NCBI RefSeq assembly: GCF_000378425.1
Contig: NZ_KB899820.1
Location: 1-64,000 of the forward strand
Origin: Cohnella laeviribosi DSM 21336
GTDB lineage: Bacteria > Bacillota > Bacilli > Paenibacillales > Paenibacillaceae
DNA length: 64,000 nt
Reading direction: 5' to 3'
The notes beneath the pieces were generated by a model, which did no database searches, was not told the DNA's origin, and was given only the letters and a program-made list of their open reading frames with translations. Numbering within the stretch: position 1 is the stretch's first letter; each line of letters opens with the position of its first letter. Shown here one piece after another: positions 54,735 to 62,926 of the stretch. Made by a program: the position numbers and the translations under genes.

Positions 54735-54860
54735 TTGACAGCTCGGAGGCAAATGTGTAACATCAGGATAGATTATTCCAACCGGAATAGTACATTTTCG
54801 GCTGACCAGACCGCTGGAGACTGAAAGGACCTGTCAAGGGAACCTTGCAGTCTCCTTTTT
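54735..54860 (+). promoter_or_regulatory. metY promoter and candidate regulatory leader L1
   Basis: -35 TTGACA (54735-54740), 17-bp spacer, -10 TAACAT (54758-54763). The leader holds GACCAG-ACCG-CTGGAGA (54804-54820), which can form a small stem. Its CTGGAGAC part also forms the 5' arm of the following terminator, so the two structures compete. Similar leaders precede the NtaA-type gene (L3) and the CocE operon (L2). I do not recognise it as a known riboswitch or T-box. Confidence 0.75.
54816..54860 (+). terminator. Leader terminator before metY
   Basis: GGAGACTG (54816-54823) pairs with CAGTCTCC (54848-54855), followed by TTTTT, before the coding start at 54889. Suggests attenuation control. 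Confidence 0.85.
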
Positions 54861-54888
54861 GCGTTGGCGGCCAAGAAGGAGAAGCCCT

Positions 54889-56211
54889 ATGACCGAGCAG
54901 AGGGAGAAAGAGAAGCGCTGGAGATTCGATACGAAGCAAGTGCATGCCGGGCAGCAGCCCGACCCGGCGACAGGCGCGCGTGCGGTCCCCATCTACCAGA
55001 GCACGTCGTTTGCGTTCAAAGATACGGAGCATGCGCGCGCGGTCATCAATTTCGAAGAGTTGGGAAACACGTACACGAGGATAAGCAACCCGACCAACGA
55101 GGTATTGGAGCAGCGCATCGCGGCATTGGAAGGCGGCGTAGGGGCGCTTGCCGTCGCGTCCGGCTCCGCCGCCGTTACGTATTCGATCTTCAACATCGCC
55201 GGCGCCGGCGACGAAATCGTATCCGCGAGCACGCTGTACGGGGGAACCTTCAACCTGTTCGATGTGACCCTGCCCAAGCTCGGCATCCGTACGCGATTCG
55301 TCAATCCCGACGACCCGGAAAATTTCCGCCGCGCGATTACGGACAAGACGAAGGCGCTGTTCATCGAATCGATCGGAAATCCGGGCCTCAACATCCCCGA
55401 TATCCGCAAAATCGCCGACATCGCGCATGAGCACGGCATCCCGCTGATCGTCGACAATACGTTCGGCACGCCGTACCTGCTCCGTCCGCTCGAGCATGGC
55501 GCCGATATCGTCGTGCATTCCGCAACCAAATTTATCGGCGGGCACGGAACGTCCATTGGCGGTCTGATTGTGGACGGCGGAACGTTCGACTGGACAAACG
55601 GCAAGTTTCCGGGCTTTACGGAGCCCGACAAGAGCTATAACGGCATCCGGTATGTGGAGAAATTCGGCGAGCTGGCCTACATTACCAAGGCAAGAATCCA
55701 GTTTCTGCGCGATATCGGCGCGTCGCTCAGCCCGTTCAACGCGTTTCTGCTGCTGCAGGGGCTGGAGACGCTGTCGCTGCGGGTGGAGAAGCATCTGGCC
55801 AATACGAAGCGCATCGTCGCCTACCTGAACGAGCATCCGGACGTAGCCTGGGTCAATTATCCGGCTCTGCCTTCAAGCCCTTATTACGAATTGGCGCAAA
55901 CGTATTTCCCGAAAGGGCCGGGGTCCGTCTTTACATTCGGGTTAAAAGGCGGCTTCGAGGCGGCGAACCGCTTTATCGACAGCCTGGAACTGTTCTCGCA
56001 TCTTGCCAATGTCGCCGACGCCAAGTCGCTGGTCATTCATCCGGGAAGCACAACCCATGCGCAGCTTTCTCCCGAGGAGCAGGCCGCCGCGGGCATTTCC
56101 CCGGATTTGATCCGGCTGTCCGTCGGCATCGAGGACCCCGACGATCTGATCGACGATTTGGAGCAAGCGATTCGCAAAGCCGTGGCATCCGTTGAAACGG
56201 CGGGCGCCTGA
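54889..56211 (+). CDS. metY: O-acetylhomoserine sulfhydrylase
   Basis: 440-residue PLP enzyme joining sulfide to O-acetylhomoserine to give homocysteine, the entry of sulfide into methionine. The PLP Lys is in [15 protein letters not shown]. The N-terminus [27 protein letters not shown] and the C-terminal [18 protein letters not shown] are diagnostic. AAGGAGAAG precedes the ATG; 54859 opens the frame but lies in the terminator. It uses sulfide made from sulfonate-derived sulfite. Confidence 0.96.
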
Positions 56212-56262: not shown

Positions 56263-57603
56263 TTAAACGGGGCTGCCTGCGGCATGCCGATTGACCGGGA
56301 TCGGAAGTCCGAGATGCTCCCGCAGCGTGCGGCCCTCGTATTCGCTCCGGAACAGCCCCCGCTCCTGCAGCAGCGGAACGACCCGATCGACAAATACCTC
56401 CAATCCTTCCGGCAAAGCGGGCGCCATCAGCATAAAGCCATCCGCCGCCCCTTCCAGGAACCATTTTTCAAGCGAAGAGGCAATTTTCTCCGGCGTCCCG
56501 ACGAACGAATCTCCGCTGAAGGAACCGATGATCAGCGAATAGATTTCGCGGAGCGTCGGGTTTTCCCTGGCGATGACCGGCTGGTGCTTCCTGTAATCGG
56601 GGTTGGCCGCCTGGATCGTATCCAGTCCGGCTTCCCTTGCCGTCGTGTCGGCGGTGAAGCGGCTGAAGTCCACCTCCTTGAAATAATCCGCCAGAAAGCC
56701 GATAATCGTCTCTTCCGGAAGCAGCGCTTCGAGTTCCTTCCGTTTGGCGCGAGCCTCCTCTTCCGTAGCGCCGATGACCGGCGAAATGCCCTGCAGGATG
56801 TACACGTCGTCGGGGTTGCGTCCGGCAGCGGCGACCTTCTGCTTGAATTCCCGGTAAAAGGCGCGCGCGTCCTCGAAATTGTACTTGATCGCAAAAATCA
56901 CTTCCCCGACCTTCGCCGCAAACGCCTGGCCGGGCCCGGAATTGCCCGCCTGAACGAGCACGGGATGGCCCTGGGGCGAACGGGCGATATTGAGCGGTCC
57001 TTCCACCGCGAAAAACTCGCCTTTATGGCGAATGCGATGCATTTTGTTCGGATCGAAAAACCGTCCCTCCGCTTTGTCGAAAAGAAAAGCGTCGTCTTCC
57101 CAGGAATCCCACAAGCCGCGCACGACGTCGACAAACTCGCCGGCCCTGCGGTAGCGATGCTCCAGCTCCAAATGGGCTTCCTTGCCGAAATTGCGCGCCG
57201 TGTTGCCGGACAAGTCGCGCGTGGTCACGATGTTCCACCCGGCCCTTCCTTTGCTGATGTGGTCGACGGACATGAAGAGCCGCGCGAGGTTAAACGGTTC
57301 GATATACGAGGTCGAAGCGGTGGCGACAAGGCCGATGCGCGAGGTCGCGCCGGCCAGCGCGGCGATCAGCGTGATCGGCTCGAACCGGTTGAGGATATTG
57401 GGGTGGGACTGCTCGTTGATCGCCAGGCTGTCGGCCAGAAAAGCGATATCGAATTTGCCGCACTCTGCGGTCTGGGCCAAGCGGCGGTAGTAGTCGATAT
57501 CGATACTTGCGCCGGGATTGGCCCCTTCCAACCGCCAGGACGCGGCGTGCATGCCTGTGCCGACCAAATAAGCGGATAATTTCATCTGTCTCTTACGGGG
57601 CAT
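56263..57603 (-). CDS. NtaA/SnaA/DszA-family FMN-dependent monooxygenase
   Basis: 446-residue luciferase-like enzyme. Family features: FDIAFLADSLAINEQ, LVATASTSYIEPFNLARLF, GRAGWNIVTTRDLSGNTARNFG, and VLVQAGNSGPGQAFAAK. Relatives oxidise nitrilotriacetate, sulfones or other C-S/C-N compounds. The setting between metY and a transporter suggests organosulfur cleavage. AGGAGGG precedes the ATG at 57603; the longer open frame runs through leader L3 and is rejected. Confidence 0.92.
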   Translation of the reverse strand: MPRKRQMKLSAYLVGTGMHAASWRLEGANPGASIDIDYYRRLAQTAECGKFDIAFLADSLAINEQSHPNILNRFEPITLIAALAGATSRIGLVATASTSYIEPFNLARLFMSVDHISKGRAGWNIVTTRDLSGNTARNFGKEAHLELEHRYRRAGEFVDVVRGLWDSWEDDAFLFDKAEGRFFDPNKMHRIRHKGEFFAVEGPLNIARSPQGHPVLVQAGNSGPGQAFAAKVGEVIFAIKYNFEDARAFYREFKQKVAAAGRNPDDVYILQGISPVIGATEEEARAKRKELEALLPEETIIGFLADYFKEVDFSRFTADTTAREAGLDTIQAANPDYRKHQPVIARENPTLREIYSLIIGSFSGDSFVGTPEKIASSLEKWFLEGAADGFMLMAPALPEGLEVFVDRVVPLLQERGLFRSEYEGRTLREHLGLPIPVNRHAAGSPV

Positions 57604-57628
57604 GTCGAACCCTCCTATTCGGCAGTAT

Positions 57629-57667
57629 AAAAAGAAAAAGAGACACTCTCCGAACGGAAAGCGTCTC
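57629..57667 (-). terminator. Leader terminator before the monooxygenase gene
   Basis: GAGACGC (57667-57661) pairs with GTGTCTC (57646-57640), with an inner TCCG/CGGA, then TTTTTCTTTTT; it is upstream of the start at 57603. Confidence 0.85.
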
Positions 57668-57722
57668 CAGTTTCTCTGGTCGAACCTAATGACACTGTAA
57701 GAGGTAAACCCGTTCTTGTCAA
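57629..57722 (-). promoter_or_regulatory. Promoter and candidate regulatory leader L3 (monooxygenase gene)
   Basis: On the minus strand, -35 TTGACA (57717-57722), 17-bp spacer, -10 TACAGT (57694-57699). The short leader has GACCAG-AGAAA-CTGGAGA (57681 down to 57664), the same hairpin as L1 and L2, running into a terminator. Confidence 0.75.
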
Positions 57723-57794
57723 CCGGACCCGCCAAAAAGTTGCTGCGCCTTACGGAACATGCGTAAACGAAATCGAAGGCCGTGAAATCAAGGG

Positions 57795-57933
57795 TTGACG
57801 AATATCAAAACGATATGCTAGTATAGCCACAATATAACCTATTATTTATATCGGGATTATGCAATTTGCATTGACCAGTCATCTGGAGATGTCGGATGCT
57901 AATGAACGCTCATTAGTCCGACATCTTTTTTTT
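57795..57933 (+). promoter_or_regulatory. Promoter and candidate regulatory leader L2 (CocE/transporter operon)
   Basis: -35 TTGACG (57795-57800), 18-bp spacer, -10 TAGTAT (57819-57824). The leader has GACCAG-TCAT-CTGGAGA (57873-57889). It aligns without gaps to L1 over 49 bases (54772-54820 against 57841-57889) with 33 identities by eye, including ATTATT at the same distance of 32 bases. Confidence 0.75.
57887..57933 (+). terminator. Leader terminator before the CocE-type gene
   Basis: AGATGTCGGA (57887-57896) pairs with TCCGACATCT (57917-57926), with an inner CTAATGA/TCATTAG, followed by eight Ts. Confidence 0.9.
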
Positions 57934-57968: not shown

Positions 57969-58937
57969 TTGGGGGTGTTGAAATCGAGTACGTTCGATCC
58001 TTCCGTGCAGATCGAAAGAAACGTGTCCGTTCCGATGCGGGACGGCGTCAAGCTGGCCGCGGATATATACCGGCCCGCGGCGGACGGGGCTTACACGGTT
58101 CTGCTGCTGCGGACGCCTTATAACAAAGAAGACGCGCAAACGATGAATTACGCGCACCCGGCCTGGTACGCCAGGCACGGCTACGTCGTGGTCGTTCAGG
58201 ATGTAAGGGGACGGTGGGCGTCCGAAGGCGATTTTCATCCGTATGCCTTCGAAGCGGAGGACGGATACGACACCATCGAGTGGGCCGCCTCGCTTCCCGG
58301 CGTCGTGCCGAAGGTCGGCATGTACGGCTTCTCCTATGCCGCAGCCGTCCAGTGGCTCGCGGCGATGACAAGGCCGCCGCATCTGAGCGCCATCGCGCCC
58401 GCGATGATCGGTTCGGATTCGTACCAGGGCAAAACGTACCGAAACGGCACGTTTTCGCTCGCGTTGCTGCAGTCCTGGGTGCTGTTCGTCGCCCAGGACA
58501 CGGCCCTCAGACAGAAGAGGCCGGATTGGGCGTCCGAACTGACGGATCTTTACGCCGGCATTCACGCCTACTACAAGCGGCTTCCGCTCAACGATCCGCC
58601 GGCAGCGGTCAAATCTCTCGCGCCCTATTATCTGGAATGGCTTGCGCATCCGACGCGCGACGATTATTGGAAAGCGACCTCGTTAAGGGATCATTACGGC
58701 TCGATTGACGTTCCGGCTCTGCATATCGGCGGCTGGTACGATATTTTCATCGACGGAACGATCGAGAACTTTACGGGCATTCGCAGAAGCGGAACCGCTG
58801 CGGCAAGGGACGCTCAATATTTGCACATCGAGCCCTGGTTCCACATGCCGTGGTCCCGTTATGTCGGGGAACTGGACTTCGGTCCGGAAGCCGCCAACCG
58901 GATCGACGAACTGCAGTTTCGGTGGTTCAACCGCTGA
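57969..58937 (+). CDS. CocE/NonD (S15)-family hydrolase, C-terminally truncated
   Basis: 322 residues. The alpha/beta-hydrolase part is intact: nucleophile Ser in VGMYGFSYAAAVQ, Asp in LHIGGWYDIFIDG, and a His near HMPWSRYVGE. Family members are about 550 residues with a C-terminal jelly-roll domain. That domain is missing: the frame stops right after DELQFRWFNR. The next DNA encodes the tail of a peptide-binding protein in another frame. The start codon is TTG 57969, GTG 57975 or TTG 57978; the GGGGGTG there makes the exact choice unclear. Activity of the shortened protein is doubtful. Confidence 0.85.
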   Translation: MGVLKSSTFDPSVQIERNVSVPMRDGVKLAADIYRPAADGAYTVLLLRTPYNKEDAQTMNYAHPAWYARHGYVVVVQDVRGRWASEGDFHPYAFEAEDGYDTIEWAASLPGVVPKVGMYGFSYAAAVQWLAAMTRPPHLSAIAPAMIGSDSYQGKTYRNGTFSLALLQSWVLFVAQDTALRQKRPDWASELTDLYAGIHAYYKRLPLNDPPAAVKSLAPYYLEWLAHPTRDDYWKATSLRDHYGSIDVPALHIGGWYDIFIDGTIENFTGIRRSGTAAARDAQYLHIEPWFHMPWSRYVGELDFGPEAANRIDELQFRWFNR

Positions 58938-59158
58938 GCGAAGCGTTCGACGAGACGCTGAAAGCGGCGGTCAAAGAGATCGACGACGCCAAGCAGGTGG
59001 AACTCTACAAAAAAGCGCAAACGATTCTGGCGCAGGACGCGGCGGCCGTCTACATTATGGACCCGAATTTGAACGTGGCGCTCAGCAACAAGCTGGCGGG
59101 CTACAAGCAATATCCGCTCTACGTTCAGGATCTGTCGACCGTATATTTCACGGAGTAA
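58936..59158 (+). pseudogene. 3' remnant of a peptide/nickel ABC substrate-binding protein gene
   Basis: In the frame ending at 59158, about 70 residues match the C-terminus of SBP_bac_5 proteins: EAFDETLKAAVKEIDDAKQVELYKKAQTILAQD...AAVYIMDPNLNVALSNKLAGYKQYP. The first 450 or so residues and the signal peptide are absent. The preceding DNA is the CocE-type gene in a different frame. The best explanation is a deletion joining two genes. The permease genes begin 10 bp later, as expected for the original operon. Confidence 0.8.
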
Positions 59159-59168
59159 CGAATCCCGC

Positions 59169-60110
59169 ATGAACTACTATGCACGCCGCCTGCTTACGTT
59201 GCTGCTGACCGTCCTGTTCGTGCTGCTGCTGACGTTCGCCGCGTTCCGGATCATTCCCGGCAATCCCGCGCTTGTCATTCTGGGCACGGAAGCGACCGAC
59301 GCGCAGATTGCCCTGCTCGAAGAAAAGCTGGGAACGGACCGGCCGCTGGCCGAGCAGTTCGCAGACTGGCTGGTCGCCGCTTTCCGGCTCGATTTCGGCG
59401 AGTCGCTCCGGTTTTCGGAGCCGGTGACGCATCTGATCGCGGGCCGCCTTCCCGTGACCGTTTCCCTCGCCGTCATGTCGCTTGTCTTGACGATCGCCGT
59501 CGGAATTCCGCTCGGCATCATCGCCTCGCGCGCGCGGGGCAAAGCGGCGGATATGCTGGTAACGATCGGCACGCAGCTCGGCCTTGCCGTCCCGTCGTTC
59601 TGGATGGGCATCATGCTGATCCTCGCATTCGGTCTTACGCTTAAGTGGTTCGCCGTCAGCACCTTTACGCCGTGGTCGGAGAATCCTTGGCTGGCGGTCA
59701 AATCGCTTGTGCTTCCCTCCGCGGCGCTCGCCGTCCCGCAAATCGCCATCGTGGTCCGCTACCTGCGCACCTCCATGCTGGAGCAGCTCGGCCTCGATTA
59801 TGTGCGGACGGCGAGAAGCAAAGGGCTGCGGGAGTCGACTGTTTTGTATAAGCATGTGCTCAAAAACGCCCTTCTGCCCGTCATCACGATTATCGGAATC
59901 AACTTCGGCGAGCTGCTGGCGGGCAGCCTTGTCATCGAGCAGGTCTTCACGCTGCCGGGCATCGGCAGCCTGCTGATTACGGCGATCGGCAACCGCGATT
60001 ATCCGCTCGTTCAGGGACTTGTCGTCCTCATTGCCTTCACCGTCATTGCGATCAACTTTGTCGTCGATCTGTCCTATCGCTGGCTTGACCCGAAAATCCG
60101 CTTACAGTAG
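59169..60110 (+). CDS. Dipeptide/oligopeptide-type ABC permease (DppB type)
   Basis: 313 residues with six helices, an N-terminal YYARRLLTLLLTVLFVLLLTF, the RIIPGNP loop and the C-terminal EAA region DYVRTARSKGLRESTVLYKHVLKNALLP. It imports peptides or similar solutes, possibly sulfur-containing ones given the setting. First intact gene of the transporter set, directly after the binding-protein remnant. Confidence 0.95.
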   Translation: MNYYARRLLTLLLTVLFVLLLTFAAFRIIPGNPALVILGTEATDAQIALLEEKLGTDRPLAEQFADWLVAAFRLDFGESLRFSEPVTHLIAGRLPVTVSLAVMSLVLTIAVGIPLGIIASRARGKAADMLVTIGTQLGLAVPSFWMGIMLILAFGLTLKWFAVSTFTPWSENPWLAVKSLVLPSAALAVPQIAIVVRYLRTSMLEQLGLDYVRTARSKGLRESTVLYKHVLKNALLPVITIIGINFGELLAGSLVIEQVFTLPGIGSLLITAIGNRDYPLVQGLVVLIAFTVIAINFVVDLSYRWLDPKIRLQ

Positions 60111-60119
60111 AGGCGCGTC

Positions 60120-60929
60120 ATGAAAAGAATGAAAAGCTACAGTCTTGTGCTCGGAGCGTCCTTCGTTTCGGTTTTGTTCGTCGTGATGCTGATCAGCCTG
60201 GTCTACACGCCCCATCCGCCGAATGAGATGAATATCCGCGAGCGGCTGCAGGCGCCAAGCGTTCGCCATTGGCTCGGAACGGACAATTTCGGCCGGGATA
60301 TCCTCAGCCGCGTAATGGTCGGCTCGCAGACCGCTTTCGAAGTCGGGGCCGTATCGGTCGCCATCGGACTGCTGGGCGGGTTTCTCGTCGGGACGCTGGC
60401 CGGCTACATGGGCAGATGGGTGGACGAGTTGCTGATGCGCGCAACGGATGCGCTGCTCGCCTTTCCCGGCATTCTCCTCGCGCTGCTGCTGGTGTCCATA
60501 TCGAAGCCGAGCCTGTTTCAGACGATGCTGGCGATCGGCATTCTGTCGATTCCGTCGTTTGCGCGCGTCATCCGAAGCGGCGTGCTGCAGCATAAGGAAG
60601 CGGACTACGTGAAAGCGGCCCGCGGCCTGGGCGCGGGACACGCTAACCTGATTTTCGTCCAGATCGCGCCCAATATCGCCTCTTCCGTCGTGACGACCGC
60701 GGCGCTCAGCTTCTCGACGGCCATCCTGATCGAAGCGGCGCTCAGCTATTTGGGGCTCGGCGTGCAGCCGCCCGATCCAAGCTGGGGCCGGATGCTGAAC
60801 GAAGCGCAGAGCTACCTGGCCAAAGCGCCGTGGTTTACGCTGGCGCCGGGGCTTCTGATTACCTTGACGGTGCTCGGCTTCAACCTCCTCGGCGACGGGA
60901 TCCGGGACCTGCGCGACAAAAAAAGCTAG
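60120..60929 (+). CDS. Dipeptide/oligopeptide-type ABC permease (DppC type)
   Basis: 269 residues. It has the HWLGTDNFGRDILSRVMVGSQ motif of DppC proteins and the EAA loop DYVKAARGLGAGHANLIFVQIAPNI. Nine bases separate it from the DppB-type gene. It completes the membrane channel. Confidence 0.95.
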   Translation: MKRMKSYSLVLGASFVSVLFVVMLISLVYTPHPPNEMNIRERLQAPSVRHWLGTDNFGRDILSRVMVGSQTAFEVGAVSVAIGLLGGFLVGTLAGYMGRWVDELLMRATDALLAFPGILLALLLVSISKPSLFQTMLAIGILSIPSFARVIRSGVLQHKEADYVKAARGLGAGHANLIFVQIAPNIASSVVTTAALSFSTAILIEAALSYLGLGVQPPDPSWGRMLNEAQSYLAKAPWFTLAPGLLITLTVLGFNLLGDGIRDLRDKKS

Positions 60930-60942
60930 AAAGGTGATGCAG

Positions 60943-61968
60943 ATGAGAGAGGCGGCGGCAATCGCAACGGAAGCATCGCTGCTGGATATCCGGAATTTGC
61001 AGATTCGATTGAGGCGGACCCGCGGCGCGGGTCTGTCCGTATTGGACGGGGTATCGCTGACAGTGGAACGCGGGGAAACGATCGGCATTGTCGGCGAATC
61101 GGGCTGCGGCAAAAGCGTGCTATCGCTGTCGATTCTCGGTTTGCTGCCGAGCGCCATGCGCATTGGCGGCGGGGAAATCTGGTATGAAGGACGGCATCCG
61201 CTGCACACGATGACCGACCGGGACATCCGGGCCTTTCGGGGCAAAGAAATCGCGATGATCTTCCAGGACCCGATGAGTTCGCTCAATCACGGTCTTACGA
61301 TCGGCTATCAGATAACGGAGACGCTTCGGCTCCATCTCGGATATTCGCGCAAGGAAGCCAGGGAACGCGCCGTCTGGCTGCTCCGCAAAGTCGGGCTGCC
61401 GCGCCCGGAATCGCTGCTTCGGGAATATCCTCACCAGCTTTCCGGCGGCATGCGCCAGCGGGTCATGATCGCGATCGCCGTCTCCTGCAATCCCGGCCTG
61501 CTCATTGCGGACGAGCCGACGACGGCGCTCGACGTGACGATCCAGGCGCAAATCCTCGATCTGATGCGGCAAATCCGGGAGGAGGACGGAACGTCGATCC
61601 TGCTGATCTCCCACGATTTCGGCGTCATCGCCGACATGTGCGACCGGGTTCTGGTCATGTATGCGGGGCAAATCGTCGAATCGGGAACGGTCGACGACCT
61701 TTTTGAGCGGCCGCTTCATCCTTATACGGCCGGGCTGCTCCGGTCGATTCCGACGCCCGCGAAGAAGAACAGCCCGCTCTATTCCATCGAGGGCCACGTG
61801 CCGGCGCTGCACGAGCGGGGCGCAGGCTGCCGCTTCGCCTCCAGATGCGCGCATGCGACCGAGCGCTGCCGGACGGAGCAGCCCGAGCTGGTGGCCTACC
61901 GGGGCGGGCATGCCGCGCGTTGTTTCCTCGCGGAAGCGGAAGGAGGAAATCGCCATGCCGCCGTCTGA
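60943..61968 (+). CDS. Dipeptide-type ABC ATP-binding protein (DppD type)
   Basis: 341 residues. Walker A is [16 protein letters not shown], the signature [14 protein letters not shown] and Walker [13 protein letters not shown]. The C-terminal oligopeptide-transporter extension has the Cys-rich [15 protein letters not shown] that in relatives binds an Fe-S cluster. Three possible starts (GTG 60934, ATG 60937, ATG 60943) follow AGAAAGG; spacing favours 60943. Confidence 0.94.
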
Positions 61969-62926
61969 GCCGCTCGTGGAATTAAACGGCATTACCAAGT
62001 CGTACGCCAAGCCGGTTTCGCTGTTCAAGCGGCAAACGCTGCGGGCGGTGGACGGCGTGTCGCTATCCGTTCGCCAAGGGGAAACGTTGGGACTGGTCGG
62101 AGAGAGCGGCTGCGGCAAATCGACCACCGGCCAGATCGCCGCCCGGTTGCTCGCCCCCAGCGGCGGCAAGCTGCTCTACCGCGGCGAAGACGTCACCGGC
62201 GCGGGAGCGGGTGCGCTGCGGCGGGCGCTTCGCCGGCGGATTCAATACGTGTTCCAGGACCCTTTCACCTCGCTCAATCCGCGGTTTCCGATCGGCCGGC
62301 TGCTGGGAGAGCCGCTTAAGATCAACCGGCTGTGCGGCCGGAAAGAACGGCAACTGCGCGTAGGGGAGATGCTGGAGACGATCGGGCTGGACGCCTCCTA
62401 TGCGAAGCGTTATCCCCACGAGCTGAGCGGCGGCCAGCGGCAGCGGATAGGCATCGCCCGCGCCCTGATCCTGAATCCCGAGTTCGTGGTACTGGACGAA
62501 CCGGTTTCGGCGCTGGACGTCTCCGTCCAAGCGCAAATTCTGAACCTGCTGAAGAAGCTGCAGCGGGAATTCTCGCTCACGTACCTGTTCATCTCGCACG
62601 ATCTGAACGTGATTCACTATATGAGTGACAAAGTCGCCGTCATGTACCTGGGGAAAATCGTCGAGACGGCCGACGTCGACTCCCTCTACAGCCGTCCGTT
62701 GCACCCGTATACGCAGGCGCTCATGTCCTTCGTGCCGGCGGACGATCTGCGCGCGAAACGGGAGAAAATCATTTTGAAAGGCGACCTGCCCAATCCTCTC
62801 GCCATTCCGGCGGGCTGCCCGTTTCAGACCCGGTGCGCGCACGTTCACGAACGCTGTTTGTCTGCGGCTCCGTCGCTGAAGGAAGCGTCGCCCGGCCATT
62901 CGGTGAGCTGCCATCTTTATGCCTGA
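61955..62926 (+). CDS. Dipeptide-type ABC ATP-binding protein (DppF type)
   Basis: 323 residues. Walker A is [15 protein letters not shown], signature LSGGQRQRIGIARAL, Walker B FVVLDEPVSALD, and the C-terminal CPFQTRCAHVHERC Cys motif. AAGGAGGAAAT precedes the ATG at 61955, which overlaps the end of the DppD-type gene by 14 bp. Last gene of the operon. Confidence 0.95.
   Translation: MPPSEPLVELNGITKSYAKPVSLFKRQTLRAVDGVSLSVRQGETLGLVGESGCGKSTTGQIAARLLAPSGGKLLYRGEDVTGAGAGALRRALRRRIQYVFQDPFTSLNPRFPIGRLLGEPLKINRLCGRKERQLRVGEMLETIGLDASYAKRYPHELSGGQRQRIGIARALILNPEFVVLDEPVSALDVSVQAQILNLLKKLQREFSLTYLFISHDLNVIHYMSDKVAVMYLGKIVETADVDSLYSRPLHPYTQALMSFVPADDLRAKREKIILKGDLPNPLAIPAGCPFQTRCAHVHERCLSAAPSLKEASPGHSVSCHLYA

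Follow-up and report, generated by a model that had tools for sequence, protein, structure and literature searches.

An operon for a CocE-type hydrolase and a peptide-type importer in the window, the 64,000-nucleotide stretch of the soil bacterium Cohnella laeviribosi DSM 21336 analyzed here, has very probably lost ~2.9 kb in a single recent deletion. The ancestral operon would have read cocE - HAD hydrolase - SBP - dppB-C-D-F, with the lost segment running from within cocE into the binding-protein (SBP) gene. The order, missing content, frame, and size of the deletion follow, at the level of sequence, from comparison with relatives. We infer that a single event was responsible and that the deletion exists in the cell and is not confined to the assembly.

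A truncated cocE gene joined to a binding-protein remnant

The cocE gene (CocE/NonD hydrolase; 57969..58937, + strand) starts near 57969 and ends at a TGA stop at 58935-58937, giving an open reading frame of 322 aa, compared with 576-625 aa in full-length relatives. The shortfall is ~250 residues rather than the ~200 estimated by an earlier sequence-only reading of the window, which had correctly placed the end of the frame after the hydrolase domain: Pfam Peptidase_S15 is complete across residues 25-293 (211 bits), and the NCBIfam CocE_NonD (TIGR00976) match covers only model positions 1-300 of 550. The protein is therefore not a full-length member of TIGR00976 (~550-580 residues in all), lacking the C-terminal PepX_C-type domain found at residues 326-562 in the CocE of an intact relative. 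It retains the S15 alpha/beta-hydrolase domain with the catalytic Ser, Asp, and His positions (GFSYA, GWYDIF, and PWFHM in alignment with cocaine esterase structures). These features are common to cocaine esterase CocE (PDB 1ju3, 3i2f), whose C-terminal domain is missing from the window protein.

Immediately downstream, in a different frame, lie the last ~72 codons of an SBP_bac_5 (oligopeptide-family) binding-protein gene (58940..59158, + strand) without a plausible start, matching the ~70-residue tail of the earlier reading. A Pfam search with the tail gave no match, and its NCBIfam matches were weak and limited to the C-terminal ends of the DppA, GsiB, and OppA models; the signal/lipobox N-terminus and the SBP_bac_5 core domain are absent at the locus. 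The tail shares 87, 86, and 80% amino acid identity with the intact SBPs of Bacillus sp. FJAT-27264, Paenibacillus naphthalenovorans, and Cohnella thailandensis, respectively, higher than the identities of dppB (75 and 77%) and dppD (70 and 71%) to the first two. Differences from FJAT-27264 fall mainly at third codon positions (11, 3, and 44% at positions 1, 2, and 3), and codon-position divergence is no greater than among intact copies. The tail thus appears hardly to have drifted since gene loss, either because there has been too little time for decay or because the gene is not truly broken. The undecayed state of the tail suggests that the deletion is recent.

Homology to cocE reaches 58934-58936 and homology to SBP begins at 58940-58946, and the nine bases AGCGAAGCG at the junction (58937..58945) are assignable with confidence to neither gene. 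A search for microhomology, proposed as a check near 58935, found none; nor do direct repeats flank the breakpoints in relatives, where the longest shared strings are 4-6 bases, and a 9-base string shared across the junction in the window is uninformative. With no repeat or microhomology, and with junction bases that fit neither gene well, the sequence points to no particular deletion mechanism. Several events, such as a deletion and subsequent small changes nearby, would leave the same picture, which tempers the reading of a single deletion.

Intact relatives and the missing segment

In a comparison set of 151 genomes, ranging from genus to order, the closest cocE, SBP-tail, and dppB matches co-locate in the same loci. 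In twelve relatives (Cohnella, Paenibacillus, and Bacillus sp. FJAT-27264), the order is the same and cocE and SBP, both full-length, precede dppBC, the intact arrangement that the sequence-only reading had proposed to look for. Relatives with the locus include C. thailandensis, C. xylanilytica, P. ehimensis, P. tyrfis, P. oleatilyticus, P. paeoniae, P. tuaregi, and FJAT-27264. A HAD-hydrolase gene, small and phosphatase-like, was seen directly between cocE and SBP in 9 of the 12; in genomes G002, G076, and G086, the spacing of the full-length cocE and SBP genes is the same. The interval between the final cocE codon and the initial SBP codon that are shared with the window measures 2902-2981 bp in six relatives, as against ~10 bp in the window itself. 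Measured on these six, the window is without ~2.9 kb, comprising ~250 cocE codons, the entire HAD-hydrolase gene, and ~465 SBP codons; in C. thailandensis terms, this corresponds to ~0.79 kb of cocE, a 0.74-kb HAD gene, and ~1.4 kb of the SBP gene. The earlier reading had the kind of event right, a deletion taking the hydrolase C-terminus together with most of the SBP, but put its size at ~2 kb and missed the HAD gene.

A tree of dppB and dppC groups the window with C. thailandensis, FJAT-27264, and P. naphthalenovorans (support 99/97), on a short end branch of 0.14. C. thailandensis DSM 25241 and FJAT-27264 match the window in gene order, in the leader RNA described below, and in protein identity of 70-80% over most common parts, and FJAT-27264 also shares the divergent luciferase-like gene; in contrast to the window, cocE, HAD, and SBP are all full-length in both. 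That the short order is ancestral and the relatives gained the 2.9 kb can be given almost no credence: we found no point in support of it, the homologous SBP tail and N-terminal cocE piece make sense only as remnants, and all surrounding branches carry the long form.

No relative was seen that combines this short CocE with the absence of an SBP. P. naphthalenovorans PR-N1 (L088/L043) resembles the window in having a divergent NtaA/DmoA-type gene, a leader-like element before that gene, and a broken cocE, but its cocE carries a separate, frameshifted internal deletion (residues ~190-440), and its HAD and SBP genes are intact. In Paenibacillus sp. GSMTC-2017, cocE is absent and the locus reads HAD-SBP-dpp. 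The cocE gene thus appears to be dispensable, or evolutionarily loose, in this group, so that its loss in the window is no great surprise; losing the receptor does more damage.

Two other cocE variants were considered and set aside. In FJAT-27264, a ~100-residue insert (L087:2480-2793) in the linker between the CocE domains, where the window gene breaks, is an in-frame, repeat-rich expansion of that linker and not a mobile element. The short CocE of G104 (L023) arises from a frameshift of its own close to the domain boundary, past which the C-terminal domain continues in a different frame. Separately, an SBP gene in a Lysinibacillus metagenome-assembled genome (L111:5190-5969) seems to be without its middle (model residues 112-352), at a locus containing 100 N that may represent a scaffold gap.

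The window genome is a 4.48-Mb draft in 102 contigs with 99.99% completeness. It is unlikely that the cell still has the 2.9 kb and that the assembler dropped it. The draft state of the genome would allow for such an error, and the SBP remnant is undecayed, as expected if the gene were really whole. However, the junction is located mid-contig in a 117-kb contig (C13) with no N, no repeat connects its two sides, and despite the near-complete genome no other contig carries the lost cocE C-terminus or SBP. Searches of the genome with the lost CocE C-terminus gave no match, those with the lost HAD protein gave only generic HAD relatives (best 37% identity), and an intact SBP query recovered the tail itself and full-length paralogues of ≤35% identity, short signal-peptide matches aside. 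Together with the intact order in relatives, the absence of these pieces elsewhere strongly supports the proposed removal of the hydrolase C-terminus and most of the SBP. The deletion is an ordinary gene loss, real in the sequence as given.

An importer without an evident receptor

The dpp-like genes that the sequence-only reading placed next are all open and full-length on the + strand: two permeases, dppB-like (59169..60110) and dppC-like (60120..60929), and two ATPases, dppD-like (60934..61968) and dppF-like (61955..62926). They supply the two permeases (BPD_transp_1 in each) and two ATPases (ABC_tran plus oligo_HPY in each) of a Dpp/Opp-type importer, but not the cognate binding protein, which is missing at the window locus. 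Genes downstream of the deletion show no decay, and the leader on the promoter side of the operon has been retained.

Elsewhere in the genome are eight further SBP_bac_5 genes, each with a dppB-like gene in the retrieved flank. Since each has its own permease, no spare receptor is evident, which agrees with the suggestion that the transporter is without its own receptor unless one is encoded elsewhere. The DppBCDF importer is therefore without an evident receptor of its own, and borrowing from another system is possible.

Such borrowing would form part of a functional remodelling of the locus, in which the short CocE would function as a single-domain hydrolase and the importer would rely on the binding protein of another system. 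This we consider quite improbable, as we do the corresponding proposal that the truncated operon is still used, with an active single-domain CocE and DppBCDF fed by a paralogous system's binding protein under the shared sulfur-regulon leader. The intact triad positions, leader, and dppBCDF genes fit remodelling, as does the dispensability of cocE seen in P. naphthalenovorans and GSMTC-2017. Against it, the short form is a stable state in no relative, every receptor gene in the genome is accompanied by its own permease, and the SBP tail is too recent a remnant for any selection since the deletion to be visible in it. Under the favored reading of a single deletion, the locus would yield a 322-residue CocE catalytic domain with its triad positions but no C-terminal domain, no HAD hydrolase, and no receptor; the DppBCDF-type importer would be idle or, at best, borrow a receptor from one of the eight paralogous systems.

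The operon is adjoined by an O-acetylhomoserine sulfhydrylase gene (54859-56211) and a divergent NtaA/DmoA-family FMN monooxygenase gene (56263-57735, - strand), and on the basis of these neighbors it probably serves in the scavenging of organic sulfur compounds.

A conserved leader ahead of sulfur genes

A conserved hairpin-plus-terminator leader precedes cocE (57873..57933, + strand), and others precede the sulfhydrylase (54804-54860, + strand) and the monooxygenase (57635-57681, - strand). The pattern, GACCRG-N4/5-CYGGAGA followed by a stem and T-run, opens all three transcripts, that is, both genes of the divergent promoter and the sulfhydrylase. It has four matches in the window versus 0.07 expected by shuffling, three of the four with a terminator. 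Across 43 distinct leaders, hairpin column pair 5/13 is G-C in 23, A-U in 19, and G-U in one, and never unpaired; this alignment was fitted to the model, and the first, unfitted alignment of 16 behaves alike (9 G-C, 7 A-U). The hairpin thus covaries.

With a covariance model of the leader, 91 of 121 relatives gave a match at E ≤ 0.1 and, among 200 genomes of the class, 32 gave one at E ≤ 0.001; single weak matches are probably ordinary terminators. The leader is found across Bacilli ahead of sulfate, sulfonate, methionine, and cysteine genes. Among the downstream genes checked against NCBIfam are those for sulfate-binding and aliphatic-sulfonate-binding proteins, MetN- and MetQ-like proteins, the PAPS reductase CysH, the sulfate permease CysP, a LysR regulator, and an NtaA/DmoA monooxygenase. 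Many copies (L198-L225) also have, ~10-50 bases ahead of the leader and between promoter and hairpin, a second conserved element similar to ATAACCNACTAAT...ATNGGAATNA, which may be the operator of a CymR-like sulfur repressor.

The 3' arm of the leader hairpin (CYGG) overlaps the 5' arm of the terminator (GGAGA) in many copies, so the two structures compete, and both forms are represented in foldings of the three window leaders. The leader is likely a transcription attenuator responding to sulfur supply. A search of Rfam 15 with the leader matched no family, and a literature search gave no clear description of it; it appears to be a candidate uncatalogued RNA switch-like element, an unlisted attenuator of the sulfur regulon. 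A passage in a 2010 survey of premature terminators (PMC2965389) refers to an attenuator common to a sulfonate transporter operon and an unknown gene in bacilli, and given this hint the leader may not be wholly new.

The deletion adds one more case of recent operon decay, and its recognition is useful mainly in preventing annotation of the gene as a short CocE next to an orphan importer. Its wider value is indirect, in that comparison of the locus exposed a leader, without a match in Rfam, that is conserved before sulfur genes in the Bacilli.
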